Part shown: one piece after another, positions 28,922-59,739 of the stretch
Numbering within the stretch: the first letter of the stretch is position 1
Layout: every line of letters starts with the position of its first letter
DNA from: Desulfobulbaceae bacterium
Lineage (GTDB): Bacteria > Desulfobacterota > Desulfobulbia > Desulfobulbales > Desulfocapsaceae
Assembly (NCBI GenBank): GCA_008933635.1
Contig: WBUQ01000001.1
Span: 124,001-188,000, forward strand
Direction: 5' to 3'
Length of the DNA stretch: 64,000 bases
Position numbers and translations under genes: made by a program
The notes under the pieces: model-generated
Told to the model about the DNA's origin: nothing
The model's database searches: none
The model's input: only the letters and a program-made list of their open reading frames with translations

Positions 28922-29286
28922 GGGGGCGAAACGGCTTCGACGGGGATGTGTAAGCTCTACGTTGCATGCCGAGCTTCTGTCAGCTCGTAAAACCGACGGA
29001 ACACAATTATAATCGCCGACGATTATAACTACGCAGTAGCAGCTTAACCGCTGTCATACTGCCGTCCCACCAGCCTTCGCCCGAAAGGCGGGATCCGGGG
29101 CGTCGACTCAACGGGCTGGTTCGGTGATGGTGCCTGACTGTCACCAGACGAGATTTTTCAGGATAGCGGCGAGAAATCTATGTTCCGACTGAGTTCTCGC
29201 GGCGAAACCTAAAGTGCGGAACTAAGCATGTAGATACGGGAGGGGAGCATTTGCGGACGCGGGTTCGACTCCCGCCGCCTCCACCA
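28922..29286 (+). ncRNA. ssrA: tmRNA; predicted tag ADDYNYAVAA* (29015-29047)
   Basis: 5' GGGGGCGAAACGGCTTCGACGGGG, 3' CGGGTTCGACTCCCGCCGCCTCCACCA, tag GCCGACGATTATAACTACGCAGTAGCAGCTTAA. Confidence 0.96.
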
Positions 29287-29314
29287 GCATTTTAAGTAGT
29301 TGTTTTTATTACGG

Positions 29315-29346
29315 AAAAAGAGGCCGTTCGACGGCCTCTTTTTTTT
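29315..29346 (+). terminator. Rho-independent terminator 3' of ssrA
   Basis: aaaaAGAGGCCGT-tcg-ACGGCCTCTttttttt. Confidence 0.8.
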
Positions 29347-29411
29347 CGTCCACTTTTTGGCCACTTTTTCGGCCATCCTTCGCTGACGGTCTCCAAACTC
29401 ACGGAGACACC

Positions 29412-30872
29412 ATGATCAGCAAACTTCCCTACCTGCAAATTGGCTACCGAGGCACCTATTATTTTCGGCTCGTAATTCCGAAGCACTTGCGCCATAGTGT
29501 CGGTCAAGCTTCAATTCGGCGATCACTCAAAACAACCGACATCCACACTGCTCAACGGAGAGCCTCAAGTCTCTATACAACCATGAAAAAATTACTCGAC
29601 ACCGAGAGCGGCGGCATCTGGTCTGCTGCGGAAGATGAAAACGACAACTCTCTTAAAAATACGATCGTCGTCGGTAACCTGAAAATCACATACCCAGACG
29701 GTCGAACAGTCGAATGCGAAAAAATTGAGACCGATCCGAACTCTGAAATAGACTCCGAAAATCTCAAAATAGCTTTATCACAACTTGGAATTGACGGAAA
29801 ACAACCGGGTACGGTTGTCGAAAGGGTTGAACCGAAAACGAAGACGGCAAAACCGATCTCAATGTATATTGAAAAAATTGTTGATGATAAAAGAAGAGAA
29901 AAATGCAGTGAGAAATACTGTGGAGCGCTTCGAGACGCAATTCTCACATTCATCGAAATAGTCGGTGACATTCAAGCCGACCAACTCGACCGCGACTGTG
30001 CTCGAAAGTATGCCGACGGCTTTATGAAACTGCCGTCAAATCGAACCAAGAAACCTCGGTATCGAGCGAAAACCGTCAAGCAGCTCCTTTCGATGCATAT
30101 CCCGAAAGAAGATCTAGTCTCGGATACAACGTTCAACAATAATCTGCAGAAACTGTCGACGTTCGCGTTATGGCTCAAACTGGAGAAAGTTCTCTCCGGT
30201 GAAAATCCGTTCTCTGGCTTTGCTCTCGACCTTGGAAAAGCGAGAAACCAATGGTGCGCATTCACAAAAGAAGAAATACAAAAAGTCTTTGACCCGAAAA
30301 CATACGTCTATGATCGAAACCGACCGTCTCACTTCTTTGTTCCACTGATTACGAGCCACTGTGGCAGCCGTGTCGAAGAAGTCTGCTGCATGAATAAGTC
30401 CGATGTCATCGAAGTAGACGGTGTTTGGTGCCTCCGGCTCTTCGAAGACGCGGACGACAAATCAAGCAAGAACGCGATGTCTGAACGACTCGTCCCGATT
30501 CACTCAAAACTTCTTGAGCTTGGTTTTCTGAAATATGTCGAAACTCTGAAGGATGGCTCGAAACTCTTTCCGAATCTCAATCGAACAGTCAATGGCTACC
30601 ATTCAGCGGTTTCGAATGCTTTCAATCGTTATCTCGAAGAAATCGGAGTCAAAAGAGACAAACTCAGCTTGAAATCATTCCGTCACTCGGTCATCACGGA
30701 ACTTCTAAAACTTGAAATCAGACTCGAACATATCCGCGAAATTGTCGGTCACAGCGTCGAACACGACATCACTCTAGGAAGATACGCGAAAGGCGTGCCG
30801 GTCGACGTGCTCAAAAGAGCTGTCGACCGGCTTGACTGGAACTTGGCCGCTTCACAGCTTCCAAAATTCTAG
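29412..30872 (+). CDS. Tyrosine-type site-specific integrase
   Basis: Catalytic motifs SHCGSRVEEVCCM, LKSFRHSVITELL, IVGHSVEHDITLGRYAKG. Confidence 0.9.
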   Translation: MISKLPYLQIGYRGTYYFRLVIPKHLRHSVGQASIRRSLKTTDIHTAQRRASSLYTTMKKLLDTESGGIWSAAEDENDNSLKNTIVVGNLKITYPDGRTVECEKIETDPNSEIDSENLKIALSQLGIDGKQPGTVVERVEPKTKTAKPISMYIEKIVDDKRREKCSEKYCGALRDAILTFIEIVGDIQADQLDRDCARKYADGFMKLPSNRTKKPRYRAKTVKQLLSMHIPKEDLVSDTTFNNNLQKLSTFALWLKLEKVLSGENPFSGFALDLGKARNQWCAFTKEEIQKVFDPKTYVYDRNRPSHFFVPLITSHCGSRVEEVCCMNKSDVIEVDGVWCLRLFEDADDKSSKNAMSERLVPIHSKLLELGFLKYVETLKDGSKLFPNLNRTVNGYHSAVSNAFNRYLEEIGVKRDKLSLKSFRHSVITELLKLEIRLEHIREIVGHSVEHDITLGRYAKGVPVDVLKRAVDRLDWNLAASQLPKF

Positions 30873-32404: not shown

Positions 32405-32690
32405 TCAAGGTATCCCGGTTCTATTCCTGCCCCTGAGCCGTTTCGATCCTTCGAGGAGTGGATGCCAGCCGAAGACCAGCGTGACCATGAAGACATCCAT
32501 CTTCATGTCGTCTGGTGCGTCGTCGTTCAGGGTCGATTTGTAGCTGAACGTGAGATTCAGGTTATCGTTGACACCATAGCCGAGGGTAAACCCCATGCCG
32601 AAATTGCTCAGCTCCTCTCCGGGGACGCCGCCATTATTGGTTGCCGGCCCCTGTTCTGTCGTCTGTTGGGTTTTAGTTAGAGGATTCCAG
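32405..32690 (-). pseudogene. Remnant 3' copy of the adjacent porin-like gene
   Basis: PGEELSNFGMGFTLGYGVNDNLNLTFSYKSTLNDDAPDDMKMDVFMVTLVFGWHPLLEG matches the C-terminus of 32673..33677. Confidence 0.7.
32456..32509. repeat. Direct repeat copy 1 (partner 32709-32762)
   Basis: gagtggatgccagccgaagaccagcgtgaccatgaagacatccatcttcatgtc occurs at both sites, 253 bp apart. Confidence 0.9.
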
Positions 32691-33677
32691 CTTTCGAAAT
32701 CCTTCCATGAGTGGATGCCAGCCGAAGACCAGCGTGACCATGAAGACATCCATCTTCATGTCATCGGGAGCGTCGTCGTTTAAGGTCGACTTGTAACTGA
32801 AGGTAAGGTTGAGGTTCTCGTTAATTCCGTACCCCAGGGTAACTCCCATAGCGAAATTGTTCAGTTCCTCTCCGGGGACGCCGTCATTGATGGTTGCCGC
32901 GCCGCCATTGTAGACGGCGGCATCAAGTGATCCCCAAAGTCTTTCGGTGAGATCGCGAGTCAGGTGTGCGTCCAACTGAAAAAGGAGATCGGATTCCAGC
33001 GTCTGCCCAACATAGTCGTCATTGTCGCCAAAAACCCACATGACGGGAAGAAACTCCAGCGTCGTTCTCCGACCAGGCACCCATGGTCCGAGCTGCCAAA
33101 CGATGGGCATGCCAATGCGCCCATACCATCGGTTCTGGCTGATATTCAACGGCTGATCGTTGTTGTACTCGCCAATCGGCAGATAGAGGTCGGCGAGAAA
33201 ATCAACGGAGAACCCCGGTTCGTAGCGCATGGCATCGGGAATATTCTTCTGAGCTGGTGGCCCAAGAAGGTTGACGACGAATTCAAGCATTGGGTCGCCG
33301 AACCCTGACGCCGATTGCTTGGCCGAACTTCCCGCCACCGTCACCTCGCCCGATGCCCGACCCATGGGCATGATCACCGCCGCCGTTGCCGAGCGATCAA
33401 ACAAGGAAAAATTGTGGGCATAGCCAAGTAGGGCAAGCGTGGCATCAAATTCCGCTCCGGCAGTAACCATATGCGAGGGATCGAAGGGGTTGGTGTTTCC
33501 GCTTATCGATTCAAAAATCGTCAGCACTCCATTGCCGCCCGAAAGGTTCTTCCAATAGAACCGCGCCGGGACTTGCGCCAAGCTTTGTGGCGGATAGAAC
33601 AGCCCTACGGCGCTCACTACTGCGGCAGCCAGCCCAGCCCAAAGAACCGATTTTTTTAAGAATTCTTTGTTTTTCAT
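32673..33677 (-). CDS. Outer-membrane porin/transporter-like protein (phenol MetA-pathway-like)
   Basis: Signal peptide, alternating beta-strand pattern, VDFLADLYLPIGEYNNDQPLNISQNRWYGRIGMP. Confidence 0.65.
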   Translation of the reverse strand: MKNKEFLKKSVLWAGLAAAVVSAVGLFYPPQSLAQVPARFYWKNLSGGNGVLTIFESISGNTNPFDPSHMVTAGAEFDATLALLGYAHNFSLFDRSATAAVIMPMGRASGEVTVAGSSAKQSASGFGDPMLEFVVNLLGPPAQKNIPDAMRYEPGFSVDFLADLYLPIGEYNNDQPLNISQNRWYGRIGMPIVWQLGPWVPGRRTTLEFLPVMWVFGDNDDYVGQTLESDLLFQLDAHLTRDLTERLWGSLDAAVYNGGAATINDGVPGEELNNFAMGVTLGYGINENLNLTFSYKSTLNDDAPDDMKMDVFMVTLVFGWHPLMEGFRKLESSN

Positions 33678-33726: not shown

Positions 33727-35604
33727 TCAAGATTTGGGGGCTGCTATCATGTCCTGGGGTGGAACGAATTGTTTCTTTTTGATCAGCGGCGGATAACCCG
33801 GGTCATCGGGAACGCGCGGCGGGAGTTGATCCTCCAGGGTTTCGAACATGCTACGGCTTGGGATGATGACGTTGTTGGCTTGCACGTAGTTCTCCCAAAG
33901 CTTGATCATTTCTTGAAGCTTATCTGGTTGCTGTGCCGCAAGGTCATGGCGTTCAGCCGGATCGTTTGTCAGATTAAACAGTTCCCATGCGCCTTTGCCA
34001 AGCGGTTTGTGTTCCCAGCGGATCTTCCACTCCCCTTGTCGTACCGCGCGATTGCCGAAATTTTCCCAGGCGAGATAGTCGCGATCGGTGCGGGGAGAGT
34101 CGACCTGGCCGTCAAGCATCGGCATCCAGGATTTACCGATGAGCGGTAGCAAGGTTTTGCCATTGCGCTCTTGGGGATAGCTGGCGCCGGCAATGTCGAG
34201 CAGCGTCGGCATGATGTCGGCGACGTGCATCAGCCCACAGTTGATGCTCTCTTTCGGGCGTTTGACCGTCGGCCCGCTGACAATCAGGGCATTGCGGATG
34301 CCGCCTTCTGCTGTCCAGCCCTTGTATTGGCTGAAAGGGGTCATCGAGACTTGCGCCCACATGGGGCCGTAGCCTACATACGATCCCGGATCGCCCCAGG
34401 CGTTGGGATGGGTCTGCGACCATTTGATCGCCGAGAAGAGGTAGTCTCGCGAACCTGGCGACCCGGCGACCATCTTGAACAGGTCGGTGCCCTCGGCGCC
34501 GTTGTCGCCGAAGACAATGAAGATGGTGTTGTCGTACTCCCCGATTTCTTTGAGATGATCAATCAGCCGGCCGACATGGAAATCGAGGTTTTCCACCATC
34601 CCGGCATACAGCTCCATCTTCTTGCCGAGAATAGCACGAGCGGCGGGGGCGAGGACGATCGGGTCGGGAACGAACCACATTCGCTCGGCAAGCTGCGTGC
34701 CTGGAGGCATAATCCCCAGTTCGATTTGTCGTTTCAGGCGAGTCTGTCGCACCGCGTCCCAACCGATATCATATTCGCCGACATGGCGGGTCCGCCATTC
34801 CCGCGGCAGATGGAACGGATCGTGCGGGGCCTGGTGGGATACATAGGCGAAGAAAGGCTTGCCGTCGCCGTGATTGGCGTCGATGAATTCGATCATCTTG
34901 TCGGTATAGGTCTTGGTCGCGTAGTAATTGTCCGGCAGTTTGGTAAGATAGCGGCCATCCTCGGTAAAGACCGACAGCGGTGAGGCGGCGGTGAAATTGT
35001 TCATATCCCAGTAGCTCCCGGCCCCATCGAGCAGGGAAAAATCCCGCTCGAAACCGCGGGCCGCCGGGATCAGATCGGGCGCCTTGCCCAAATGCCATTT
35101 CCCCACCATATAGGTGTGGTAGCCGGCATCCTTGAGAAGTTCCGGCAAGGTCGCTACCTGCTTATTGAGGTAGCCCTCGTAGCCGGGGACATTAAGTTGA
35201 TTGGGCGCGGTCCACTCGTCCATGTTCCCCAGACCGTTGACGTGGGTATCGACGCCGCTGAGCAGCACGGAACGGGTGGGCGAACAGGTGGCGTTGGTGT
35301 AGAAGTTGGTGAAGCGGACGCCGTCCTTTGCCAGCGAGTCGAGATTGGGCGTCTTGATCTCGCTGCCGAACGATCCCATGTCGGCGTAGCCCAGGTCGTC
35401 GCCGAGGATAATGACGATGTTCGGCCGGCGGGGGGACTCGGCGGCAGACATGAGGCCGGGCGAGACGACTGCGGCGGCTACGATCGCCGCCGTCAACCAT
35501 CTGCGCAACCGGTCCGATCCCGCCAGCGTCCCGACCGTAAGGGGGGGAAGGTGCTGCCGCTCCGCCTCCCTTGCTGTTTTCTTCCTGTCATCAAACTGTT
35601 TCAT
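33727..35604 (-). CDS. Type I arylsulfatase
   Basis: NIVIILGDDLGYADMGSFGSEIKTPNLDSLA and sulfatase signature CSPTR. Confidence 0.92.
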   Translation of the reverse strand: MKQFDDRKKTAREAERQHLPPLTVGTLAGSDRLRRWLTAAIVAAAVVSPGLMSAAESPRRPNIVIILGDDLGYADMGSFGSEIKTPNLDSLAKDGVRFTNFYTNATCSPTRSVLLSGVDTHVNGLGNMDEWTAPNQLNVPGYEGYLNKQVATLPELLKDAGYHTYMVGKWHLGKAPDLIPAARGFERDFSLLDGAGSYWDMNNFTAASPLSVFTEDGRYLTKLPDNYYATKTYTDKMIEFIDANHGDGKPFFAYVSHQAPHDPFHLPREWRTRHVGEYDIGWDAVRQTRLKRQIELGIMPPGTQLAERMWFVPDPIVLAPAARAILGKKMELYAGMVENLDFHVGRLIDHLKEIGEYDNTIFIVFGDNGAEGTDLFKMVAGSPGSRDYLFSAIKWSQTHPNAWGDPGSYVGYGPMWAQVSMTPFSQYKGWTAEGGIRNALIVSGPTVKRPKESINCGLMHVADIMPTLLDIAGASYPQERNGKTLLPLIGKSWMPMLDGQVDSPRTDRDYLAWENFGNRAVRQGEWKIRWEHKPLGKGAWELFNLTNDPAERHDLAAQQPDKLQEMIKLWENYVQANNVIIPSRSMFETLEDQLPPRVPDDPGYPPLIKKKQFVPPQDMIAAPKS

Positions 35605-35619: not shown

Positions 35620-37896
35620 CTATGGTTTCGGGTTCTTCCCTGATATTTCCTTGAGCAGCGCCTCGGCATCCCTGTGCTGAGGATGCTTTTCGAGCAGTGC
35701 GCTCAATACCTTTCGGGCCTCTGCTGTCTCGCCTTTTTGCTGCATGTAGAAGGCAAGGGTATAGGTGTACTTCGCATCCTGCGGGCTGAGGTCTGCGGCC
35801 TTCCGGCACCAGGAAATTGCCTCGTCGAGCCGGTCACGGGCGGTGATAACGCAAAGATTGTAGGCAGCCTGCGCCATCTGGGTATCGGCCGTGAAGGCCT
35901 TCCTGAGATGATCCTCTGCTGGTTTCAGCTCGCCTTTTTCGGCAAGCAGAAGCCCCAGGTTGAAGTTTGCCGCAGCATTGTCCGGCTCCTGCGCGAGCGC
36001 CTTCAGCAGGATCTTCTCGGCTTCGGCGGTCTCTCCTGCCCGGGCAAGGGCTATGGACATATTGACCATCACCACGACAGCCTGAGGATCAAACCGCAGG
36101 GCTGTCCGATAGGACGCGACAGCTTTGTCGAACTCTCCTTTGCCAAGCTGGTAATTTCCCAGGTTGTGGCGGGATGACCACTGATCGGGCATGACGGTGA
36201 GCGAGGCCAGGTATTCTTCGGTTGCCTTGTCGAGGTGCGCCTGATAGGCCGCCGGCGCATTCATCTCCGGAAAGGAGGTGAGCGCTGCCGCCGCCCGCAC
36301 CCTCACCAGCCGGTAGTCGTCTCTGGTTAGCTCGATCAGGGTCTGCAGGCTTTCCATGGACGGAATGAGTCCCAATGCGTGAGCGGCGGCCCCGCGTACC
36401 AGCGGAGAGGGGTCTCCGGCCGCCTTGAGCAGTGCATCCTTCACTTGCTGATTCTGTCCCGGCGGAATCAACCGGATAAGTGATGCGGCGAAGATTTCGT
36501 CGCGCCCGGGATCGGTGATGCAGGCCAGCATCTCCGGCAGCTTCGTCCAGTTTCGCTTGCGGGCCATGTCGATAAGGGATGCGCGTTCAAGGACAGGTCC
36601 CTGATAATCCCGGCGGTGCCACTGCCTGACACGGGCATCAGCCCAGGCGGCTTGTTTGTCGCTATGGCAGATGGTGCAGGCATTGGGAGAGTTGAAGGCC
36701 ATGGTTGCCGAAGGGGCCGGCGGGAGCATCGAGTGGTCGCTCCTGTTCATCCTGGCAAAGGACGTCTTCGGCATATGGCAGGAGATGCACCTGCTGCCTT
36801 CGCTTGCCTCTGCGTGGCGGGTGTGTGCCGCCGAATTCTTGACCTTGTCCTGATGGCAGGGAAGACAGGCGTCGTTGAACTTCTCCAGTTTGAACCGGTA
36901 CCGACCGCTGGAGGTGTGGCAGTGCATGCAGTCGATCCCGCCGGACTTGACGCAGGGACTCATGCTCCACGAGGTGATGGTGTAGTTTTCTCCCAGATCC
37001 CTGCCATCGGCATAGAAATCCGGGTCTTCGAGGGTCGCAAGGTCGAAGTAGTCATAGAAGCGCTCTCCCGGGCCGTATGCCGCAGCCAGCGGGTTCGCCT
37101 TGGCATGGCAGCTGGCGCAGAGATCGTTGCGCTGGGCCGTGGTCATGGTTTTGGTGCTGATGATCCGTATATCCGGCAGCGGCTGGCCTTTGCCGGCTTC
37201 CCTGGCGATCCTGTTGTGCTCCGCTGCCGGGCCATGGCAGGTTTCGCAATTGATCCCCGGTTCGGTCCAGGTCGTATGGTAGGTGTCGGTCTTCGGATCG
37301 TAGTTTGTCGAGAGTTGACTCACATGGCAATTATAGCAGGCGGTGTTGAATGTATAGGAGCTCCCTCGCCAGTCCACCGCCTGGCCCTGGGCTTCCCCGG
37401 GAAAGTGGCGGATTCCGCTGGCAGTGGTGTCGAACCATTCCTTTTTTTTGACGTCATAGGCAAGGGGAAGGGTCTGGAGCCGGCCCCGTGCGAACGGTGT
37501 CAGGAAATAGAAGACATTCTTGCCGCCAAGGACATGCTCGATCCTGTATGTTTTCCTGCCTTCGCGGCCTCGTTCGATGACGACTCCATTTTCCGGGTCT
37601 GCGTGATATGTTACGTTCCCAATGACAATATCGCCCGCATGTGCCGTAAGGTTGCCCTTCGCGAAGTTTGTCGAATAGGGCTGCATGGCCAGTCCGTGCA
37701 TGGACGTGGACCAGAGCTGGTAAAACCTCTCATGGCACGCCCTGCAGCTCGGCGACCCGGCGTAGCGGATGGATTGATCATCCTGAGCGAGAGCAGTGCC
37801 GGCGAATACTGTGCACAGCAGAACGATGCAGATTGATTTCATGTTTCTCTGGTGACATTGAGCCTCCTGTCGCTGCAGGAGGGTTTCTTCCTTCAT
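35620..37896 (-). CDS. Octaheme c-type cytochrome with HEAT-like and TPR repeats
   Basis: Eight CxxCH motifs (CRACH, CYNCH, CETCH, CASCH, CMHCH, CLPCH, CISCH, CTICH) followed by HEAT-like and TPR repeats. Confidence 0.88.
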   Translation of the reverse strand: MKEETLLQRQEAQCHQRNMKSICIVLLCTVFAGTALAQDDQSIRYAGSPSCRACHERFYQLWSTSMHGLAMQPYSTNFAKGNLTAHAGDIVIGNVTYHADPENGVVIERGREGRKTYRIEHVLGGKNVFYFLTPFARGRLQTLPLAYDVKKKEWFDTTASGIRHFPGEAQGQAVDWRGSSYTFNTACYNCHVSQLSTNYDPKTDTYHTTWTEPGINCETCHGPAAEHNRIAREAGKGQPLPDIRIISTKTMTTAQRNDLCASCHAKANPLAAAYGPGERFYDYFDLATLEDPDFYADGRDLGENYTITSWSMSPCVKSGGIDCMHCHTSSGRYRFKLEKFNDACLPCHQDKVKNSAAHTRHAEASEGSRCISCHMPKTSFARMNRSDHSMLPPAPSATMAFNSPNACTICHSDKQAAWADARVRQWHRRDYQGPVLERASLIDMARKRNWTKLPEMLACITDPGRDEIFAASLIRLIPPGQNQQVKDALLKAAGDPSPLVRGAAAHALGLIPSMESLQTLIELTRDDYRLVRVRAAAALTSFPEMNAPAAYQAHLDKATEEYLASLTVMPDQWSSRHNLGNYQLGKGEFDKAVASYRTALRFDPQAVVVMVNMSIALARAGETAEAEKILLKALAQEPDNAAANFNLGLLLAEKGELKPAEDHLRKAFTADTQMAQAAYNLCVITARDRLDEAISWCRKAADLSPQDAKYTYTLAFYMQQKGETAEARKVLSALLEKHPQHRDAEALLKEISGKNPKP

Positions 37897-38735
37897 TTCG
37901 GAAAGAGAAAGGTGAGCTGGATGCGCAACCCCCAGTCTTCCTGCCCGCTATCCGGCGATTCGGCCCAGTATTTTGCCCCCACAGCCAGTTGCAGGATCTG
38001 CGGGCCGATCTTGAACAGCTGCGCCACCTGGGCGATCACCGGCACCGACCACTGCTCGTTTTCCCAGTCGTAGGTGGCCTCGGTGGTCAGGCTGAAGGTC
38101 GTTTTGGTCGTGGTGACGTAGCTCACAAAGGGCTGCAGGAAGGTGGCGTTGATGTCATCCCGATCATCATCGCCTGCCACCGACCAGATATGGTTGGTCA
38201 GAAAGCCGACCGTCCACGGTCCCGACTGCTTCAGGGCCACGGCCGTCGGTCCTATGCCCCACTGTTCGCTGCCGAGCATGTCGTCGGTTGCCGCCGGCAG
38301 CAGTTCGACCGGCCCTGCACCCCAGATCCAGCCGCCGGCTGTCGGGGCCTTCGGCGAAAAAAACTGGCTGGCGACGACATCGCCGAGGCCCGATTCATTC
38401 ATCGTATCGAGCGGGAAATCTTGGCGATCGATCAGCGGCACGATGGTGCGCGTGATCATGTTCCAGTCGTCGTTCAGTGAAAGTGGGATAACCGGCTGGA
38501 TGTTCAGGACGTGGGCCGCTGCACCTTCGTTCTCTTCACCATACTCGTCGTAGTTGTACTGAAGGGGCACACTGATCAGGGAAGCGATCGGGTTTGCCAG
38601 CTTCTTGGCCAGTTCCACCGCCTGGTCGGTTGCGGTGTTCTCCTGGGCGACTGCGATGCCCATCGGCGACAACACGGCAAGGGAAAGAGCTGCCGCCAGA
38701 ATCCGGCAATGACGGGTTTTCTCAGAAAAATTCAT
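37893..38735 (-). CDS. Outer-membrane transporter/porin-like protein
   Basis: Signal peptide from MNFSEKTRH; beta-rich, ends in aromatic-containing LTFLFPK; ORF extends to 38801. Confidence 0.6.
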   Translation of the reverse strand: MNFSEKTRHCRILAAALSLAVLSPMGIAVAQENTATDQAVELAKKLANPIASLISVPLQYNYDEYGEENEGAAAHVLNIQPVIPLSLNDDWNMITRTIVPLIDRQDFPLDTMNESGLGDVVASQFFSPKAPTAGGWIWGAGPVELLPAATDDMLGSEQWGIGPTAVALKQSGPWTVGFLTNHIWSVAGDDDRDDINATFLQPFVSYVTTTKTTFSLTTEATYDWENEQWSVPVIAQVAQLFKIGPQILQLAVGAKYWAESPDSGQEDWGLRIQLTFLFPK

Positions 38736-38857
38736 GGTATCCTCCAGTTCAGTGTTGAAGAGTTGCGCTTGATCCGGCGGAGCTTCGCATCCGGCGACCA
38801 CGCCCTGGCCTTACGCCTGCTGACAGCCGACGTCCACATCTCTGCCCGATGTTTGGA

Positions 38858-39076
38858 TTATTTGACCTTATAGCCTCGTGCCTCCAGGCAGACGCTGTAG
38901 GCGCGATAATACGTATCCGCCATTTTCTTGTTCGCGCTGGCCGTCGCCGCTGCCTGCTGTTTGGCCTGCTGTTCCTGCTTTTTCTTTTTCACGAGTCCAA
39001 TCGCGCCGCAAACGGCGGCTCCGGCCACCGCGTCCTCGCCGAATTCCCCTCCCATATCCGGTTGCGAATGGTACAT
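38858..39076 (-). pseudogene. C-terminal fragment of a glycine-zipper-type small protein (probable remnant)
   Basis: GAAVCGAIGLVKKKKQEQQAKQQ...MADTYYRAYSVCLEARGYKVK without signal peptide. Confidence 0.4.
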
Positions 39077-39750
39077 CCTCGGATCCGATAGTCATCAGCG
39101 AGCAGAAATTTTTCAAATTGGCCGAGTTCCCCCTGAACCCGAGTCGCATCGACCGTCATCTGCAGTGATCCGGTCAGCAGTTCTCTGTGTTCGTCCTGCA
39201 GTGCAATAGCCCCTTCCGCTGTCGACAACCCCTTGCCCAATGCTCTGTTATACAGATCGCAGGCCTGACGGAAACAGTTGTCATACATGCTCGGCAATGG
39301 TTCTTCGCCGGCCCCAAACAAGTAGGAATAGGCATAGAGCGCCGACAGGAGATAGCTGTCTGTGGCCTTGATCCGCCGGTCCGCGCTGTCGGCATGCTCC
39401 AGTTTTTCGCCAATGAGGAAGTTGAGTTCGGCAAGGGCGAAACGCAGGTTCCGGCGGTCGTCACCCTTGGCTATCTGCTGCTGAAGATCGTGGAGAACCG
39501 ACTCCGGGTTCTTGTCGATCTGATCCCGCAAATTTGCTCGATAGAGGACGACGTTGGTCGTCGAGCTGGCCTTCGTCGAGGTCAGCGCGGAGTTGCTGAC
39601 TTCCTCGTAGGTACCTCGGAGGCCGGCCGGGTCCACACCGTAGGGCGTGGCGCAACCGGACGCGACCATGCCAGCAGCAGCAACGTGTTTCCCTTGCACT
39701 TCAACATCAGAATCCTGTCCTGTTTCATCCTCTGCCTCGCTGCTATACAT
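38989..39750 (-). CDS. Lipoprotein-like N-terminal region, possibly truncated alpha/beta-hydrolase-associated protein
   Basis: VASGCATPYGVDPAGLRGTYEEVSNSALTSTKAS...LRFALAELNFLIGEKLEH...LLSALYAYSYLF; C-terminus runs out-of-register into the neighbouring fragment. Confidence 0.45.
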   Translation of the reverse strand: MYSSEAEDETGQDSDVEVQGKHVAAAGMVASGCATPYGVDPAGLRGTYEEVSNSALTSTKASSTTNVVLYRANLRDQIDKNPESVLHDLQQQIAKGDDRRNLRFALAELNFLIGEKLEHADSADRRIKATDSYLLSALYAYSYLFGAGEEPLPSMYDNCFRQACDLYNRALGKGLSTAEGAIALQDEHRELLTGSLQMTVDATRVQGELGQFEKFLLADDYRIRGCTIRNRIWEGNSARTRWPEPPFAARLDS

Positions 39751-40891
39751 GACACACCGCTGTCAGGGCGGCGCTTTTTCTGGCGATCGTGTCGAGCAGA
39801 CTGATCCATGATCGAAGCAACGCATCGTCTTCGTCTTTCTGCAGGCTGTTGGCAAGCATTTCAATATCAATGCCGGCACAGATGCTCCCTGACGCGCTCT
39901 GCTGCTGTTGATCGCGATGTCCCGCCTTCCCATCTGGTACTGTTGGAATGCGATCAGGAACCGATGATCCGGAATCCTGACACCGTGCGGCAACCGAGCA
40001 GACGGCACCAATTTCCCTTACCAGCGAGAGGTTCGATCGACAGAGTTCGATGCTGCCTGCAAACGAACAGACCAGGCGTGGTCGTTGGGCGCCGAATTCC
40101 ATCACTCGCTGCCACCGCCGTGTTTCAAAGAGATCGCGAGCGACAAGGCAGATTTCCAGCAATACGGCATTGACGCAGGCGACAGCGGATTTTTCCGGAA
40201 ACAGATGACTGAAACCTGCCAGCAATCGGTTTACCGGTATCGTCAGAAAACAGGACGAGGACGGTTTTCGTCCGGCAATGAGACAGCCCTCGAAGGCCTG
40301 CAGAATAGTCTCGGCGACGGCGCGAAGCTGGAGGGAAGAAAACAGCAGGCCGATATTGAGGGAAATATTCAAGGTAATCAACGACTCAATGGTCGGAAGC
40401 CGTGACGGCAGTCCCGCAATGCTGATCATGAGATTTGGTTGCCGGTATCTGGCATCATCCAGTGGGACCGTTTCTGGCATATTCGCCGTATCGTTGGTGG
40501 AGAGAGGTGAATACGGTACGGCAACCCAGCCATTCAGGCCTCCCGATTTTTGGAAATTTGGCAGCATCAGGTTGGCGGCGTGAAGGGCATCCGCGATAAG
40601 GAGTTCCATCGCCAGTCGCCCCCCGTAGAATCCTTCCCTCAGTTTCTCCTGAATCAGCTGATCGAATACCTTCCCTGCCTGCAGCACCCTGTCACATGCA
40701 TCGAGAGTGACGGAAAGTCCAGCTATTGAGTGCCCTTGCCGGTTGTCAGCCAGCAAGCTGAGCGTCGCATGCTCTCCTGCGAGACCTTCCAGCCACAGGC
40801 CTTGCCCACTATCGATCAGATCGGAGATTGTAGTCACGGTTCTCCCCATGTTTTCTGCAACATATCCCCTCGTCGGAATATTCCGGCACAT
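39743..40891 (-). CDS. Transaldolase-like protein lacking catalytic Lys (putative pseudoenzyme)
   Basis: YRQPNLMISIAGLPSRLPTIESLITLNISLNIGLLFS aligns with transaldolase NLMIKIPAT...INVNVTLLFS; Lys->Ser. Confidence 0.7.
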   Translation of the reverse strand: MCRNIPTRGYVAENMGRTVTTISDLIDSGQGLWLEGLAGEHATLSLLADNRQGHSIAGLSVTLDACDRVLQAGKVFDQLIQEKLREGFYGGRLAMELLIADALHAANLMLPNFQKSGGLNGWVAVPYSPLSTNDTANMPETVPLDDARYRQPNLMISIAGLPSRLPTIESLITLNISLNIGLLFSSLQLRAVAETILQAFEGCLIAGRKPSSSCFLTIPVNRLLAGFSHLFPEKSAVACVNAVLLEICLVARDLFETRRWQRVMEFGAQRPRLVCSFAGSIELCRSNLSLVREIGAVCSVAARCQDSGSSVPDRIPTVPDGKAGHRDQQQQSASGSICAGIDIEMLANSLQKDEDDALLRSWISLLDTIARKSAALTAVCHV

Positions 40892-40939: not shown

Positions 40940-40957
40940 AGCAAAAGGAATGCCAAT
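40940..40957 (-). promoter_or_regulatory. Sigma54 -24/-12 promoter
   Basis: - strand TTGGCATTCCTTTTGCT; GG and GC separated by 10 nt, ~50 bp upstream of the 40891 start. Confidence 0.7.
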
Positions 40958-41053: not shown

Positions 41054-41069
41054 CCTCAATATATGGAGG
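41054..41069. promoter_or_regulatory. Near-palindromic activator site CCTCAATATATGGAGG
   Basis: Matches 41253-41268 at 15/16 positions. Confidence 0.55.
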
Positions 41070-41252: not shown

Positions 41253-41268
41253 CCTCAATATATTGAGG
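41253..41268. promoter_or_regulatory. Perfect palindrome CCTCAATATATTGAGG
   Basis: 16-bp perfect palindrome between regulator and sigma54 promoter. Confidence 0.6.
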
Positions 41269-41295: not shown

Positions 41296-43275
41296 TCAAA
41301 TCGGACGTCGAATGTCCATTTTTTTCAAGCGGAAGCGTAAGGTGCTGGGGTGGAGGTTCAGCATCGAGGCAGCCCCGTCCGGTCCTTCTATTTTCCAATT
41401 CGATCTGCGCAGTACCTGAATGATGTGGTGGCGTTCGACGGAGGCGAGATCAAGTGTGGGGTCAGGGACAGGCCCCGATTCCGTCAGGGGGGCAGCAAGG
41501 TCGCCGATTGTCAGCTGCGGCCCTGAAGAGAGAATGACGCCCCTTTCGATCAGATGCTCGAGTTCCCGAACATTGCCCGGCCAATCGTATTGCAGCAGCC
41601 TGGAAAGGAGGTTTTTTGGTATCGTTTCAATATGCTTGCCCATTTTATGGGCGAACTTTTCGACAAAATACTGCGCCAGCAGTAGAATATCCTCGGTTCG
41701 TTCCCGGAGGGGCGGGATCGTGATCGGAAAAACATTGAGACGGTAAAACAAGTCTTCGCGGAACCGCCCGTTGCGGACCGCGTTCCGGAGATCCCTGGAC
41801 GTTGCCGCAATGACCCTGACGTCAACCGTGATGGTTTTCGAACTGCCAAGCCGCTCGAACTCCCCATCCTGCAGGACCCGTAGGAGCTTGGCCTGCAGCT
41901 CCAGTGGCATCTCCCCGATTTCGTCGAGAAAAATCGTCCCGTGGTGGGCGATCTCGAAACGACCGGCCTGACGGGCATGCGCCCCGGTAAACGCTCCCTT
42001 CTCCCTGCCGAAGAGTTCGCTCTCAATGAGGTTGGCGGGCAAGGCCGCGCAGTTGACCGTTACCAGAGGGCGATCCCTGCGGGAATTCATCCGATGAATG
42101 GCATGAGCGAGCAGACCTTTGCCGGTGCCGGTTTCCCCGAGCAGCAGAACTGTCGAATCGGTCTGGGCAACCTGTCGAGCGGCGGCCAGAACCTTTTTCA
42201 GCGCCGCACTGCCACCGATGATCTGTTCGAACCCCTGTTCCCTTGTCAGGTCCTTCCGGAGAAAATACACCTCTCCTTCCAAGCGCCTTTTCAGTGTTTC
42301 AACTTCCTCGAGGCGATCGCGCAGATTCTCTTCCATGCATTTGCGTTGATGGATGTCGAGGCTCACCCCGAACAGCTGACCGACAGTTCCATCCGGGTGC
42401 TGGTATCGCCTCCATTTCGAGCAGATCCACTTCCACTGACTGGATGCGTCGCGGATGCGATATTCAATTTCAAAGTGTTCCGATGAAATGCAGCTGTCCT
42501 TGATCATCTGTTGAACCGGGGGCAAATCGGCCGGGAAGATGCAGTTTTCATATTTTTCCATGTCGATGATCTCGTCCCGGGAAAAACCGAAAATCTCCCG
42601 GCTGCGGTCGGTTGCCCAGAACAACTTCGCCCGCAGGTCCAGTGCCCATAATCCGGCACCGGCAGATTCAGCGGCGAGACTCAGCAGCCATTGGCTCTTC
42701 CGCAATGCATTTTCCGTATTCTTTCTCAGCAGGGCATTGCAGAAAATCTGGGCAACCAACTCCAGCCGTTTGACGGTATCCGGATCATGGACGAACGGCG
42801 TGTGCAGCATATTGAAGGAGAGAACCCCGATAATCGGTTTGTTCCCGGTATAGAGGGGAATCGACACTGTTGACTTGATGCCGTATCGGCGTTTGGTTTC
42901 GAGATCTGTCAATGATTCCTGATCAGTTAGGTCCTCCGTGTTAAAAATGATTGTCGACCCTTCCATGAGTTGTTTCGCCGACCATGGAAATGCTTCTGCG
43001 GCGACGAGTTCGGTCGGCTTTTTCGGACCGTCGGCCGGACTGTGAAGGTGGGTCAGGACCATGCATTCCGGTTTGTCGACAGACCACTGCCAGAGCGTCG
43101 ACAGATCAAAACCGAGGAATTCGCAGATGCGTCGCTGGGCGTCCTCGATGTATCCGTCCACCTCTTCAGCGGAAAGATTGATGAACTGAGCAGACAATTG
43201 CGAAATCAGCGTCTCGAAGGATAGTTGTTTCAGCAACGCGTCTCTGTTGCTTTTCCTGGTTGCTGGTTTCATCAA
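41296..43275 (-). CDS. Sigma54-dependent activator with GAF and PAS domains, Fis-type HTH
   Basis: [46 protein letters not shown] ([19 protein letters not shown]), C-terminal HTH. Confidence 0.9.
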
Positions 43276-43648: not shown

Positions 43649-43951
43649 TCACTGAGATTGAGTAGGCCGAGCTACCAAACGGACACCGAGGGCTGCACAC
43701 ACCTTATTGATTGTGTCAAATCGAGGTTTGGCATTTGGTTTTAGCGCTTTATACAGAGCTTCACGGGTTATACCTGTAGATTTTGCAACTTCGCTCATAC
43801 CCCGAGCTTTGGCTGCTACCCCTAAAGCATGGGCCAGTTCAGCTGCATCACCATCCTCAATCACCATCGTGATATATGCAGCGATATCTTCTTCGCTCTT
43901 CAGCTGTTGAGCCATATCGAAATTTGGTAAGTCGGCAATGTGTTTTTTCAT
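43649..43951 (-). CDS. HigA-type addiction module antitoxin
   Basis: VAAKARGMSEVAKSTGITREALYKALKPNAKPRFDTINKVCAALGVRL (HTH). Confidence 0.85.
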   Translation of the reverse strand: MKKHIADLPNFDMAQQLKSEEDIAAYITMVIEDGDAAELAHALGVAAKARGMSEVAKSTGITREALYKALKPNAKPRFDTINKVCAALGVRLVARPTQSQ

Positions 43952-43954
43952 AAT

Positions 43955-44251
43955 TCAATCCTCCAGCGCAGCTTCACGCTCTTTGGCTGTTGCGATATCC
44001 TTCTCTTGACTGCCCTTGTCTCCACCGCCAAGCATGATGATTAACGTATCACCTCGCTTGGTATAATACATCCGCCAGCCCGGACCGAAGTGCTCCCGCA
44101 TTTCGAAAAGGCCTTGGCCCACAGGCTTTACATCGCCGAGATTTCCTCGCTGGGCTTTATCAAGACGACGGCTTAGGCGAAGCCGTGTAATGCTGTCTTT
44201 TATGCAGTCCAGCCATTTATCGAATTCTGGTAGTGTTTTAACTGTATACAT
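43955..44251 (-). CDS. RelE/HigB-type toxin
   Basis: LPEFDKWLDCIKDSITRLRLSRRLDKAQRGNLGDVKPVGQGLFEMREHFGPGWRMYYTKRGDTLIIMLGGGDK. Confidence 0.88.
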   Translation of the reverse strand: MYTVKTLPEFDKWLDCIKDSITRLRLSRRLDKAQRGNLGDVKPVGQGLFEMREHFGPGWRMYYTKRGDTLIIMLGGGDKGSQEKDIATAKEREAALED

Positions 44252-54119: not shown

Positions 54120-55546
54120 ATCTCGTCTTCTGCTTGAGTTGTTGGAGCCGCGATCGTATGCTGCTTCTCATCTTGATTCGTACCCCAACGTGACTTTAGC
54201 AATTCGGCCATACGGAATGTTGTTCTATCGATTGCGGGCTTTGGTAAATAATTATCAATCAGAGATTGAAATCCACCAACATGATCACCGATCAACAGGC
54301 TGATTTGGGCATGCCTTCCAATTTTTTCATACGCTCCTATTATCCGGCCTAGAGGATCATCGTAAGATATAACAACAAGATGGGTGGACGGGATAGTGAG
54401 CATGTCTTCAATGATGCGGTTAATATGCTCATCCCCAAAACTGTATCCGAATGCAATCAGAGTATGGTTAGGACGGCAGGCTGCTGCCGCGAAATCCCGG
54501 AAGAGTTCTACGTAAGGATAGAGAGCCGTTTCTCTGTCTTTAGCCGCGTTGGGATAAACCATCAGCCTCATCGCGTCTGTTTTTGCTGAACCAAAGCTTT
54601 TAAGATATTGATTTATGCCGGTTGCCCCGAAGGGCACACCAGCACGACGAATATTCCGATTGTATTCTACCCAATCCAACGAGCCGTGCAATTTAGTAAA
54701 GCGTGCCACGCCTTCCAAATATCGAGGCTCACCGCGAATCCCTGGTGGGTTGTAATGCATATCTAAATCAAGCCTAGAGGAACGGAAAATGGGAGCCAGA
54801 GAACCAACAAAACGATCCAGTAAGTGCATGCCAGAGGCTTCTGCTCCAGCCTCGATAAAGCGATCATAGTTAGTGGTGAAAATATTCAGACGGTCACGGG
54901 TGCCGGTACGGCTGGCAAAGCTCATTAAAAAACTAACAAGATAGTTAAAGGCCAGTTCACGATTTTCGTCCGTGGCTTCGATGACACCTTGTTCACCAAG
55001 GAGGATGTCATTTGCGAAGGTTGCAAGTACATCAGTTAATTTCAATCGCAATGCACTTGCTCGTTTTGCTGCATCTTTATCCTTTAAGGAAAGAATTTCC
55101 AAACCTCGGAGAAGCTCGTTCGCAGCACGAATTTGGTCTTCAATGTTGCCATCTCCTCGCCCGGTAATATTTGCTGATCGCGCGGCTTCTGCGTTGATCA
55201 CATCATTTTCATCACCAAAATCTCCCTTCCCCATACCTGGAAGCATTTTTCCGGTCCCGAGGCGATGGACCGCGTGGGATAAGCCCGAACCTAATAACAA
55301 CGAAAGGTGTTCAGACTGACATAACGCTGTCAGCCAGGGTTCGATACGCGGCCGAAGCTTATCAGGGCCAAAAGTTTCTCCAGATTTTGCCCAAGAGCAA
55401 CCTGAAGCCTCTAAGAGCTTAAACTCGGGTGCTTCAGAGTCTTGAGGTTCTTTAATTGATGTGAATAAGACCGGTTTGTGGTCATCTCTGCATTTCAGAA
55501 TATTTTTGACTATAATTTTGCTTTCTTCGGCTGAATTATTAATCAT
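54116..55546 (-). CDS. SIR2-family protein
   Basis: LSLLLGSGLS, NIFTTNYDRFIE, RFTKLHGSLDW, LIAFGYSFGDEHINRII. Confidence 0.88.
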   Translation of the reverse strand: MINNSAEESKIIVKNILKCRDDHKPVLFTSIKEPQDSEAPEFKLLEASGCSWAKSGETFGPDKLRPRIEPWLTALCQSEHLSLLLGSGLSHAVHRLGTGKMLPGMGKGDFGDENDVINAEAARSANITGRGDGNIEDQIRAANELLRGLEILSLKDKDAAKRASALRLKLTDVLATFANDILLGEQGVIEATDENRELAFNYLVSFLMSFASRTGTRDRLNIFTTNYDRFIEAGAEASGMHLLDRFVGSLAPIFRSSRLDLDMHYNPPGIRGEPRYLEGVARFTKLHGSLDWVEYNRNIRRAGVPFGATGINQYLKSFGSAKTDAMRLMVYPNAAKDRETALYPYVELFRDFAAAACRPNHTLIAFGYSFGDEHINRIIEDMLTIPSTHLVVISYDDPLGRIIGAYEKIGRHAQISLLIGDHVGGFQSLIDNYLPKPAIDRTTFRMAELLKSRWGTNQDEKQHTIAAPTTQAEDEI

Positions 55547-58350
55547 TTGATCCCCCTGTCGACTCGAAAAACCTTCATGACCTCATCACCCAGGTGATTG
55601 ATAACTTTCACCGCGATTCGTCCGGTTTCCGGTTTGTCAAAAGGTCGTGAGGTATCGCTATTGAGTGTGGCCCAAGCGTCTTCGTCAATCTCTGCCTTGA
55701 GAGTAGTCTTGAGGGATTTATACGGGTCATTGGCACCGAGAAAGTAGGCGTGGCGGACGAAAAAACTTTCCTCATTGTAGTCGGTGTCAATGAACCAACA
55801 GGCGATACCGTCAGGACCGTCGCTGCGAACTTCACCGGTATTAGGATGGAAAACGTCCACACCGTTGACTTTGACCTGGATTTGGTTATTTCCTGCCTCG
55901 ATGATATCGATATCCGGCTCACCGAAAATGACAAAGAGATTACCTTTGCCGGTATTCTTGAGATCGTCAGCCATATGTAGGTCGGCATTCATCCGAGCTT
56001 TGAGGACAGGGATGCGGCCGAGGTGATCGAACTCTGAGGAATGGGCATCGTAGTTGAAGGCGCAGGCAATTAAAACATCGAAACCGGCATCACCGGCCTC
56101 ACGGGCGGCGGACACGAGGTCTGGGCGGGAGACCGTACCAAATTCCGGGCCGATAAAGATTGCTGCACGTTTCTCATTGAGAGATTCGCCTTCTCCTTCC
56201 ATATATCGTCCTTCAGCACAGACTAGGTCTCCAGGCCAGGGAATAAGCGCAGTGAAGTTGATTTTATCTTCTTTATGTGCCTGCTGGACACCGGCGGTTT
56301 TCAAATTTTCAAGGATCATCGTGACAAAATCCCGTTCACCGCCGTAACCGTAATCAGCTTTAGGTTCCGCTAGAGGGTCTATCAGTTCGTCATCCACACC
56401 CACAGCCAAAACTCGGTGGGGAGAAAGGCTCTCGACGGTAAAGGGACCAGCAACGCGAACCTTATTTCTATTTTCATAGGGTTTGTCGTAAAGATACTCA
56501 AAATCGGCCTTGGCAGCGATTGAGGCATCAATTTCCTTTTGCCGAGTGATTCGGGTATGCCACCACTGGATGTGTAAATCTTTAGCCAGCTCAGACCAAC
56601 TGTCTTCTTTTTCGCGTGGGATTTCCCATTCCTGACAATTTTTCCCGGTTGCGGTATTCAAGGATTCACGCAAGGGTTCCAAAATATTTTGCCATTTCTC
56701 CCAAATAACATCGATTTCCCCATTGTTAGCAATGGACTTGAGGGTGATGTGTGGTACGCGCTCACAGACGAATCCGTGAGCGATATTACCTCGGGTTGGT
56801 TGGCTTGAGAGAGTTTTGCCTGCAACCTCAGCCTCTTTTTTTTGGCCTTCTGGTGAGTCAGAGAGGAGGTAGTACGGATAACGAGCACCCATTATCCGGG
56901 CACGGGCTAATGCCAGTGCCACACGTGAAGTATCAACAGTTATCCACCGACGGCCCCATTGCTCAGCGACATAGGCAGTGGTGCCTGACCCGCATGTGGG
57001 ATCGAGAACAAGGTCGCCTGGATCGGTGGTCATCAATAGGCATCGTTCGATCACCTTCAAGTTCGTTTGGACGACATATAATTTGTCGTCAGTAAAACTA
57101 CCTGTGATTGTATCCGTCCAAATATTTCCGAATTCTTGGATAGGAAAATCGTCGGAAAATTTACGGTATTGGATGCTTTTTCTAGCTACGTGTATACGAC
57201 CAGCACGAGAAAGTCTTTGCATTCCTTGAGGGTAGCTAGCTTTCCAATGGTCACTGGTTTTTGTCGTGTAAATTATTCCATCATGATTAAAAGGTTGTTT
57301 GTCAGCAGCAGAACCTTGAGAGCGGAGATCGGTCGGTTTATATAGGCGAAAATTTTCAGGAATGGATATTCCACCCCTTTTCTCGGCCGCGGAAACCCCC
57401 CTGTATTCGCCACGGGGGCCGAGTATCCATGTTGCATGGATGTTTCCAGGAGATTGTTCATGTCGAGAGAAAACCTTTCGAACTTTCACAAAATTTTTGC
57501 GTTTTGCATACCATAATAGATAATTCCCAAGTGTAGAGATGGTCTTTGTTTCATAATATGAGGTGGTCTGAAATGTGATACAGCTAATGAAATTATCATC
57601 ACCAAACACCTCATCCATCACCGACCGTACCCGGTGCACATTTTCTTCGCCGATTTGCACAAAGATTGAACCCGAATCGGTTAACAGATCCCGAGCAACC
57701 GTTAACCGATCTCGCAAATATGTTAGGTATGAATGAATCCCATCCCGCCAAGTGTCTCGAAACGCTTTGACTTGCTCAGGTTCGCGAGTAATGTGGGCTA
57801 CGTTACCGTCCTTGACTTCAAGGCTAGTAGTGGACCACTGGAAATTCGAGTTGAACTTTATCCCATATGGAGGATCGAAATAAATACACTGGACCTTGCC
57901 GCGCAAACCCTCACGTTCCGCCAACGAAGCCATGACCTGCAGAGAGTCACCGAGGATCATGCGGTTGGTCCAATTCTGTTCATGCTTGTAAAACTCTGTT
58001 CTGTCCGCATCCTGGGGGATGCCGTTGAAGTCTGCAAAGAGATCCATCTGTTTGGGTTTTCCGGCCTGGGTCTCTTTGAGAAGATCATCAATCAGGACCT
58101 TAGGATGGACTTTTTCCTGGATATAAAGTGGTGGAGCATAGACTATCAGATCGGACCAGTCTTGCTCATCCTTGCCACGCCATACCAGCTGTGGATCAAG
58201 GTCGCGGTTGCGGCGGTCGTATGCCATACGGATCGGATCTTTTATCCTATCATCTATTACGGATTGATATTCGGCAGTAGGGATATTTTTACGAGTCGAT
58301 TCTTCGTGCGTAAGAGTCTCGACGGTCAATGCCGTTTGTTTCTTTGCCAT
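55543..58350 (-). CDS. Type III-like (beta-class) DNA methyltransferase
   Basis: CIYFDPPYGIKFNS motif, LVLDPTCGSGTTAYVAEQWGRRWITVD motif. Confidence 0.9.
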   Translation of the reverse strand: MAKKQTALTVETLTHEESTRKNIPTAEYQSVIDDRIKDPIRMAYDRRNRDLDPQLVWRGKDEQDWSDLIVYAPPLYIQEKVHPKVLIDDLLKETQAGKPKQMDLFADFNGIPQDADRTEFYKHEQNWTNRMILGDSLQVMASLAEREGLRGKVQCIYFDPPYGIKFNSNFQWSTTSLEVKDGNVAHITREPEQVKAFRDTWRDGIHSYLTYLRDRLTVARDLLTDSGSIFVQIGEENVHRVRSVMDEVFGDDNFISCITFQTTSYYETKTISTLGNYLLWYAKRKNFVKVRKVFSRHEQSPGNIHATWILGPRGEYRGVSAAEKRGGISIPENFRLYKPTDLRSQGSAADKQPFNHDGIIYTTKTSDHWKASYPQGMQRLSRAGRIHVARKSIQYRKFSDDFPIQEFGNIWTDTITGSFTDDKLYVVQTNLKVIERCLLMTTDPGDLVLDPTCGSGTTAYVAEQWGRRWITVDTSRVALALARARIMGARYPYYLLSDSPEGQKKEAEVAGKTLSSQPTRGNIAHGFVCERVPHITLKSIANNGEIDVIWEKWQNILEPLRESLNTATGKNCQEWEIPREKEDSWSELAKDLHIQWWHTRITRQKEIDASIAAKADFEYLYDKPYENRNKVRVAGPFTVESLSPHRVLAVGVDDELIDPLAEPKADYGYGGERDFVTMILENLKTAGVQQAHKEDKINFTALIPWPGDLVCAEGRYMEGEGESLNEKRAAIFIGPEFGTVSRPDLVSAAREAGDAGFDVLIACAFNYDAHSSEFDHLGRIPVLKARMNADLHMADDLKNTGKGNLFVIFGEPDIDIIEAGNNQIQVKVNGVDVFHPNTGEVRSDGPDGIACWFIDTDYNEESFFVRHAYFLGANDPYKSLKTTLKAEIDEDAWATLNSDTSRPFDKPETGRIAVKVINHLGDEVMKVFRVDRGIK

Positions 58351-58413
58351 GAACTATATCCTCATATCACCTGTTGAAAAATTGCTACTTCTATATATTC
58401 CATTAAGGGATAT

Positions 58414-59739
58414 CACTAGTGTCCCAACGTTTAATCGAATAAATGCAACTGCTTACGAAGACCATCGGGTGTGGTTATGTATTCTTCTTTTGTAAGTACT
58501 TGTAATAAGGGCACTCGTTCGAAAATGGTGACGCTCAAAACCTGTAGAATTGTGTAGAGGCTGGCCTCGATTTTCATCCGCTTCTTCATGATCGCAACGA
58601 GCAGATAAACTGAAACGGCTATCCAAATCTGGGACTTGACGGCATTTTCCGAAGTTCCGTAAAAGCTCTTTATACGTAGATTCTGCTTGATCCATTTGAA
58701 AAAGAGCTCTACTTGCCAACGATTTCGGTACAATTCGGTGATGGTTATGGCAGGAAGAGAAAAGTTGTTGGTCAAGAACACCAGCGTCTTGTCGGTCTTG
58801 ACATCGTAATACTTCACCCGGCGCAATTTGTTTGGGTAATTCTTGCTTTGGTAGAACCCGGTGAGCATGATTGATTGGTCGCAAATCAAACCGGTGGTCC
58901 GGTCTATCTGGTGAGAGTAGATTCGGCGATATTTGAGGTTGGACTTGGAACGGATTACGAAGAATGCGCTGTGGGTTGAGATTGTATGCAACCGAGTAAA
59001 ATCCAAATATCCTCGATCCATAACGTAGAACGCCCCTGCTTCCAGAGGAAGGATGTCCAAGGTATTGACTTCGTGCAGTTTGCCGTCGGAGATATGGATG
59101 AAGGTTGGTATGTTGCCCCGCAGATCGAGCAGAGTGTGCAGTTTTATGGCGCCTTTGTTTCTGCGGAATTTGGCCCATGGGAACATTGAAAGACAAAGAT
59201 CGATAGTTGTGGCATCCAGGGCATAGACTGTATTTTCCAGTTCCAAGGCAAAACCATCGCCCGCATACATTTTCCTGGCGGTTTGGATGAGAGAGTGAGC
59301 AAGATCGGCGTAGATACGCCAGTCTCGAACTTTGTTGGCATTGGCCAAATTGTTGCGAGAAGCGGAAGAGCGAATTCCCATATGATAGAGCTTGTTTTTC
59401 TGAGCTTGAAGGCAGGCTTCGATATCTCTCAGGCTCTCGCGATAGGTGAGTTGAGCAAAGGCCATGCAAAAATACTGATCGAGGCAAGTGAATTCTTTGA
59501 CCTTGAAATTGCCCTGGTATCGTTCCACGCATTTGTGAAAGACGTGGAGGGGCAGATGCTCCATTATTTGAGAGAAGATAATTTTCCCGCTGAACATATT
59601 CCAGTCCTCCACGTTGTGTTACGCGCAGATGACTGGTGTTACGGAAATATTTCAAGTCGTTAAATGGCATTATGGACGGTATTCCTCTGATATTTATGAA
59701 GTTATCATTTTTTGGATCAACAACGTTGGGACACTAGTG
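58414..59739 (-). mobile_element. IS4-type insertion sequence, 1326 bp, 9-bp target duplication AAGGGATAT
   Basis: Termini CACTAGTGTCCCAACGTT / AACGTTGGGACACTAGTG; AAGGGATAT at 58405-58413 and 59740-59748. Confidence 0.95.
58431..59612 (-). CDS. IS4-family transposase
   Basis: YALDATTIDLCLSMFPWAKFRRNKGAIKLHTLLDLRG; YVMDRGYLDF; YRNRWQVELFFKWIKQNLRIKSFYGTSENAV (YREN-like). Confidence 0.93.
   Translation of the reverse strand: MEDWNMFSGKIIFSQIMEHLPLHVFHKCVERYQGNFKVKEFTCLDQYFCMAFAQLTYRESLRDIEACLQAQKNKLYHMGIRSSASRNNLANANKVRDWRIYADLAHSLIQTARKMYAGDGFALELENTVYALDATTIDLCLSMFPWAKFRRNKGAIKLHTLLDLRGNIPTFIHISDGKLHEVNTLDILPLEAGAFYVMDRGYLDFTRLHTISTHSAFFVIRSKSNLKYRRIYSHQIDRTTGLICDQSIMLTGFYQSKNYPNKLRRVKYYDVKTDKTLVFLTNNFSLPAITITELYRNRWQVELFFKWIKQNLRIKSFYGTSENAVKSQIWIAVSVYLLVAIMKKRMKIEASLYTILQVLSVTIFERVPLLQVLTKEEYITTPDGLRKQLHLFD

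Follow-up and report, generated by a model that had tools for sequence, protein, structure and literature searches.

A putative non-catalytic transaldolase family adjoining a sigma-54 activator in Desulfobulbaceae

The gene described here lies on the reverse strand of the window, by which we mean the whole stretch of 64,000 nucleotides that was analysed, within an open reading frame (39743-40891) that is real and unshifted. The frame can be read from an ATG at 40891 (382 aa), and the likely start is the ATG at 40849, because the homologous proteins begin there; this gives a coding sequence of 39743-40849 and a product of 368 aa, hereafter the pseudo-transaldolase. Its stop codon is overlapped by the truncated N-terminal part of a gene for a lipoprotein-type alpha/beta hydrolase (38989-39750), behind which a putative operon continues on the same strand with a secreted or outer-membrane-like protein that has no Pfam match (37893-38801), a multihaem cytochrome c with TPR/HEAT repeats (35620-37896), a sulfatase with a CSPTR motif (33727-35604) and an outer-membrane channel of the Phenol_MetA_deg type (32673-33677). 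The full-length homologue of the hydrolase comprises 647 aa (L031:11247-13190), and intact 647-aa homologues stand near the pseudo-transaldolase in L031 and probably in L032. Upstream of the pseudo-transaldolase and in the same direction lies the gene of a sigma-54 activator with GAF-PAS-AAA+-Fis architecture (41296-43275).

The locus is probably part of a genomic island of about 45.6 kb inserted at the tmRNA gene. The tmRNA region is found at 28922-30872 of the window with a tyrosine integrase gene directly downstream of the tmRNA, and the 3' end of the tmRNA is repeated exactly (18 bp, CTCCCGCCGCCTCCACCA) some 45.6 kb further on (L111:10849-10866; C131:198849). Such a location would explain that the pseudo-transaldolase gene is absent from four genus-mates. 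The island also holds a small gene pair at 43649-44251 that by eye resembles a RelE/HigB-type toxin and its antitoxin. Type III-like restriction-modification genes, again recognised by eye, occupy 55543-63813 of the window and are broken by an IS4-like transposase gene (58431-59612).

By sequence profile the protein is a relative of the TalB-type (PRK03343) transaldolases over its whole length. It matches Pfam TAL_FSA with 28.6 bits (cut-off 27), the Corynebacterium glutamicum transaldolase 3r5e with E=1.8e-12 and NCBIfam PRK03343 with 97.8 bits over residues 20-376, a score below the curated cut-off of 367 bits for an equivalog of that family. The AlphaFold model (pLDDT 76.5, pTM 0.79) is a transaldolase-type TIM barrel that is poorly modelled in the C-terminal region 284-316 and whose closest solved structure is the transaldolase of Neisseria gonorrhoeae (TM 0.75-0.78, Foldseek E 2.5e-15); profile and fold together place the protein by descent in the TAL_FSA superfamily. 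With the PRK03343/TalB-type enzymes (about 360 aa; C. glutamicum 3r5e, N. gonorrhoeae 3clm) it has in common the full-length fold, the C-terminal helix and a set of scaffold residues (G15, Q16, W19, D87, N139, G146, W246, R248, Q337 and W348 in the numbering of the window protein), but it differs from them in lacking the Schiff-base lysine, E96, N35, T156 and S226. A compensated frameshift in residues 300-340 was considered and rejected, as frame-aware alignment with L031, L032 and L034 gave none internal at penalties of at least 10.

Among Schiff-base enzymes transaldolase is a textbook case; a functional one (EC 2.2.1.2) carries its lysine on strand 4 of the barrel along with E96, N35, T156 and S176. 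We aligned the window protein with 23 active relatives, in all of which the catalytic columns are invariant. At the position of the Schiff-base lysine (K132), which is K in 23/23 active relatives, the window protein has Ser143, encoded by AGC (40421-40423, reverse strand) and situated on strand 4 (residues 140-145) of the model; at E96, N35, T156 and S176 it has P, T, G and T. Besides the lysine (K132->S), the residues at N35 (to T), E96 (to P), T156 (to G), F178 (to P) and S226 (to F) are lost; the exchanges at D17 (to E) and S176 (to T) are conservative, and N154 and R181 remain unchanged. Structures of TalB mutants among the structural matches reflect the importance of D17, N35, E96, T156, S176, F178 and R181. 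Neither the structure model nor the alignment places a lysine on any barrel strand of the window protein. A preliminary description of this stretch had named a transaldolase-like protein with a lysine-to-serine exchange, an eroded SNPTIF motif, a lost GTKNP-like region and a retained C-terminal part; its assignment is borne out by the profile and 3r5e matches and by the predicted barrel, in which no alternative catalytic lysine appears on the strands, while the alignment confirms the exchange and the damage to SNPTIF, finds the GTKD region eroded and has the C-terminus in place.

Homologues were sought in 258 genomes of the class, and matches came from six genomes besides that of the window. 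Five are full-length (L004, L007-L010), 24-35% identical and lysine-less throughout, with T, T, T, T and A in the lysine column; the sixth (G172) is a C-terminal fragment at a contig edge and is probably a seventh member of the family, since the end of the contig with its regulator and that of the contig with the transaldolase fragment and a sulfatase are compatible. An initial contig scan with the window protein alone had returned no homologue because the stretches used as its pattern are not conserved. As an independent check, GTDB contigs were scanned with the family alignment; the carriers it names are Desulfobulbaceae/Desulfobacterales MAGs (BRH_c16a, GWB2_56_26, S3730MH12, UBA2775, Ww85), and 27 other matches from Acidobacteriota, Myxococcota, Verrucomicrobiota and others have the lysine wherever the column is covered. 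In the tree the lysine-less proteins, six rows in all, group together with 100/100 support and separately from the 37 rows of active enzymes. A singleton or chance origin is thus ruled out by the homologues, and we regard a conserved pseudo-transaldolase family in Desulfobulbaceae as very probable on this sequence evidence.

K132, N35, E96 and T156, conserved in 23/23 active relatives, are lost in all six pseudo-transaldolases, which almost certainly makes these proteins incapable of Schiff-base catalysis. The decay is graded: identity with active enzymes falls from 47% to about 30%. A selective loss of catalytic columns is significant only in L070 (P 0.004) and L040 (P 0.04); in the window copy 3/11 catalytic columns are kept versus 55/158 other conserved columns (P=0.44), so that preferential loss had to be dropped for this copy. 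The L070 homologue is 42-48% identical to active enzymes, and its model (pLDDT 88.4, pTM 0.89, eight strands) superimposes on solved transaldolases with TM 0.86-0.91.

Could the barrel have taken up a different, lysine-independent enzyme activity, for example that of a lyase or isomerase working through the kept acid, Asn, Ser and Arg? The fold is intact and part of the pocket is kept, with D/E at position 17, N154 in five of six members, S/T176 in 6/6 and R181 in 3/6. However, the replacements of E96, N35 and T156 vary between members (S/T/C, P/T/A and A/S/V/G, respectively), and the pocket columns of the six proteins contain no new invariant polar residue, which leaves a new activity improbable. 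Residues that are invariant specifically in the pseudo-transaldolases are A51, V61, A80, P148, I166, Q174, F201, L209, S214, I233 and L356.

Each carrier genome also contains a separate ordinary transaldolase and the housekeeping activity is therefore covered. This would equally suit a role as structural or 'prozyme' subunit, with the pseudo-transaldolase forming hetero-oligomers with the active enzyme and tuning it, a pattern known among other pseudoenzymes. Yet the would-be partner is in nearly all cases an unlinked enzyme of the short FSA type (about 215 aa) from a different subfamily, no active PRK03343-type transaldolase was found in the carrier genomes, and the conserved linkage of the pseudo-transaldolase is to the activator and not to a transaldolase; we consider a prozyme quite unlikely. 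In the genome of the window the FSA-type enzyme (C131:106390-107019) has the Pfam clan and family in common with the pseudo-transaldolase, but it keeps the lysine in its VVKIPMT motif.

Is the gene maintained by selection or merely on its way out? The two measurable pairs, L031/L032 and L033/L034, have Nei-Gojobori dN/dS values of 0.19 and 0.46, respectively, which indicates purifying selection among the relatives. With catalytic residues gone from a conserved clade under such selection, the family qualifies as one of pseudoenzymes, the window pair itself being near saturation. Of all family members the window copy diverges most, and it is conceivable, if doubtful, that the family is functional while this copy on its genomic island is an early-stage pseudogene with relaxed constraint that is so far free of stops. 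Its end branch measures 4.6 substitutions per site, of the 96 columns in which the other five members all agree it deviates in 46, many of which are conserved in active enzymes too, the gene behind it is truncated and its segment 284-316 resists modelling. Against this, the frame is open with no supported frameshift, whereas the chance of remaining stop-free is only 4% after 0.1 substitutions per site of neutral drift; the comparison with L031 gives an overall dN/dS of about 0.28, with dS near saturation; and the promoter element and palindromes of the window described below are the best preserved of the six loci. The flattened codon positions of the window copy (GC3-GC2 0.13) recur in all six pseudo-transaldolases and were discarded as an uninformative sign of decay. 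The preliminary description had suggested that the protein is a pseudoenzyme kept for a new purpose and not a case of simple decay. For the family this is supported by six lysine-less members from six genomes in one clade, the dN/dS values and the shared activator with its conserved promoter-type elements; for the window copy the claim is weaker in view of the altered columns, the very long branch and the truncated next gene. The homologues share the loss of the lysine and the activator neighbour, but have T or A in place of the serine.

The activator adjoins the pseudo-transaldolase in 6/6 loci, divergently in L031 and L032 and upstream and co-directionally in the other four, including that of the window. 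The activator of the window scores 242 bits against Sigma54_activat and has the HTH_8 domain and the GAFTGA motif, and the orthologues of the six loci are 53-94% identical. It belongs to the NifA/NorR/FhlA class of sigma-54 activators that take their input through GAF and PAS domains, but stays below all NCBIfam cut-offs and is the equivalog of no named regulator. A -24/-12-like element, TGGCATTCCTTTTGCT, is located at 40940-40955 on the reverse strand, 106 nt upstream of the ATG at 40849 (P 0.004 when taken alone), and each of the six loci has such an element 95-129 nt ahead of the start codon (joint P <1/2000), with individually weak scores in L031 and L032. Between this element and the activator gene are a palindromic upstream-activator-like site with one mismatch, CCTCAATATATGGAGG (41054-41069), and a perfect 16-bp palindrome, CCTCAATATATTGAGG (41253-41268), recognised by sequence match. 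Allowing up to two mismatches, the latter has four matches in the 4.5-Mb genome, two of them at this locus, and a reversed control palindrome has zero. The palindrome stands beside the regulator also in L031-L034, G172 and G015; that of L035 is weak (5 mismatches), leaving the palindrome in five of six loci. The gene thus has the sequence features of a sigma-54 target, a -24/-12 promoter with upstream palindromes before it, and is quite likely under sigma-54 control. In G015 (L102) the activator, palindromes and an envelope operon occur without a pseudo-transaldolase, which is therefore not essential to the switch.

A second activator of this type is encoded in the genome of the window (G000:C224:6682-8652, L104); it has palindromes of its own and no pseudo-transaldolase, and adjoins a DUF3047 gene and an MGH1/GH63-like glycoside hydrolase gene. 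The same GAF-PAS sensor module is also found in histidine kinases that are paired with LuxR-type response regulators (L105, L106, L107, L108), the histidine-kinase versions of L105 and L108 adjoining the same envelope repertoire (sulfatase, outer-membrane barrel, DUF2092/DUF6515 or DUF1254/1214). The sequences point to one GAF-PAS input module with two output logics, sigma-54 activator and histidine kinase. The LuxR-type regulators belong to the histidine-kinase versions and were set aside as partners of the pseudo-transaldolase loci.

What, then, would a dead transaldolase do next to such a regulator? It heads sets of genes that differ by locus and yet draw on one envelope repertoire of sulfatase, outer-membrane barrel, DUF2092, DUF6515, DUF1254/1214, lipoproteins and fatty-acid cis/trans isomerase; sulfatases, for instance, also follow it in L034 and, in G172, at the edge of the contig. 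It may be a sigma-54-induced stress protein of the envelope operon, a scaffold or sugar-binding protein without feedback on the activator, but the constant partner is the activator while the genes downstream depend on the locus, and the pseudo-transaldolase has no signal peptide, unlike the mostly exported other products of the operon. We think this possible but rather unlikely. The activator as sole constant neighbour and the lack of a signal peptide are the reasons why we favour a co-sensor or feedback role together with the activator, although taken by itself this role is less likely than not. What the protein still does is probably non-catalytic. That the pseudo-transaldolase has some 'regulatory or ligand-binding' function, as the preliminary description put it, is what we infer. 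Overall, we give a probability of about 50% to the reading that it is retained by selection, is induced by the adjacent activator and is likely a metabolite co-sensor or feedback partner.

The favoured co-sensor role might work as follows. A complete transaldolase TIM barrel devoid of Schiff-base chemistry would be maintained by selection in the family; the GAF-PAS activator would bind the CCTCAATATATTGAGG palindromes and fire the -24/-12 promoter before the pseudo-transaldolase and the sulfatase, outer-membrane and lipoprotein genes behind it. The residual pocket, made up of the acidic D17 position, N154, S/T176 and, in 3/6 members, R181, might bind a sugar-like metabolite, and the protein, acting inside the cell as co-sensor or feedback partner, would pass this on to the activator through a presumed interaction. 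A dead transaldolase that in this way reports a sugar-type ligand to the GAF/PAS or AAA+ part of the activator and so sets the envelope/sulfatase operon is a speculative scheme in its entirety.

Pseudoenzymes as a general class are known already, and like those retained as regulators the pseudo-transaldolases have lost catalytic residues while fold and selection are kept. In the open-access literature searched we found neither a pseudo-transaldolase nor anything relevant on a link between transaldolase, sigma-54 and sulfatase. Automatic annotation of these proteins as 'transaldolase' would mislead. With members that have decayed to different degrees, and with its ties to a single regulator and one defined DNA site, this natural family makes the re-use of an enzyme fold for non-catalytic work directly testable.
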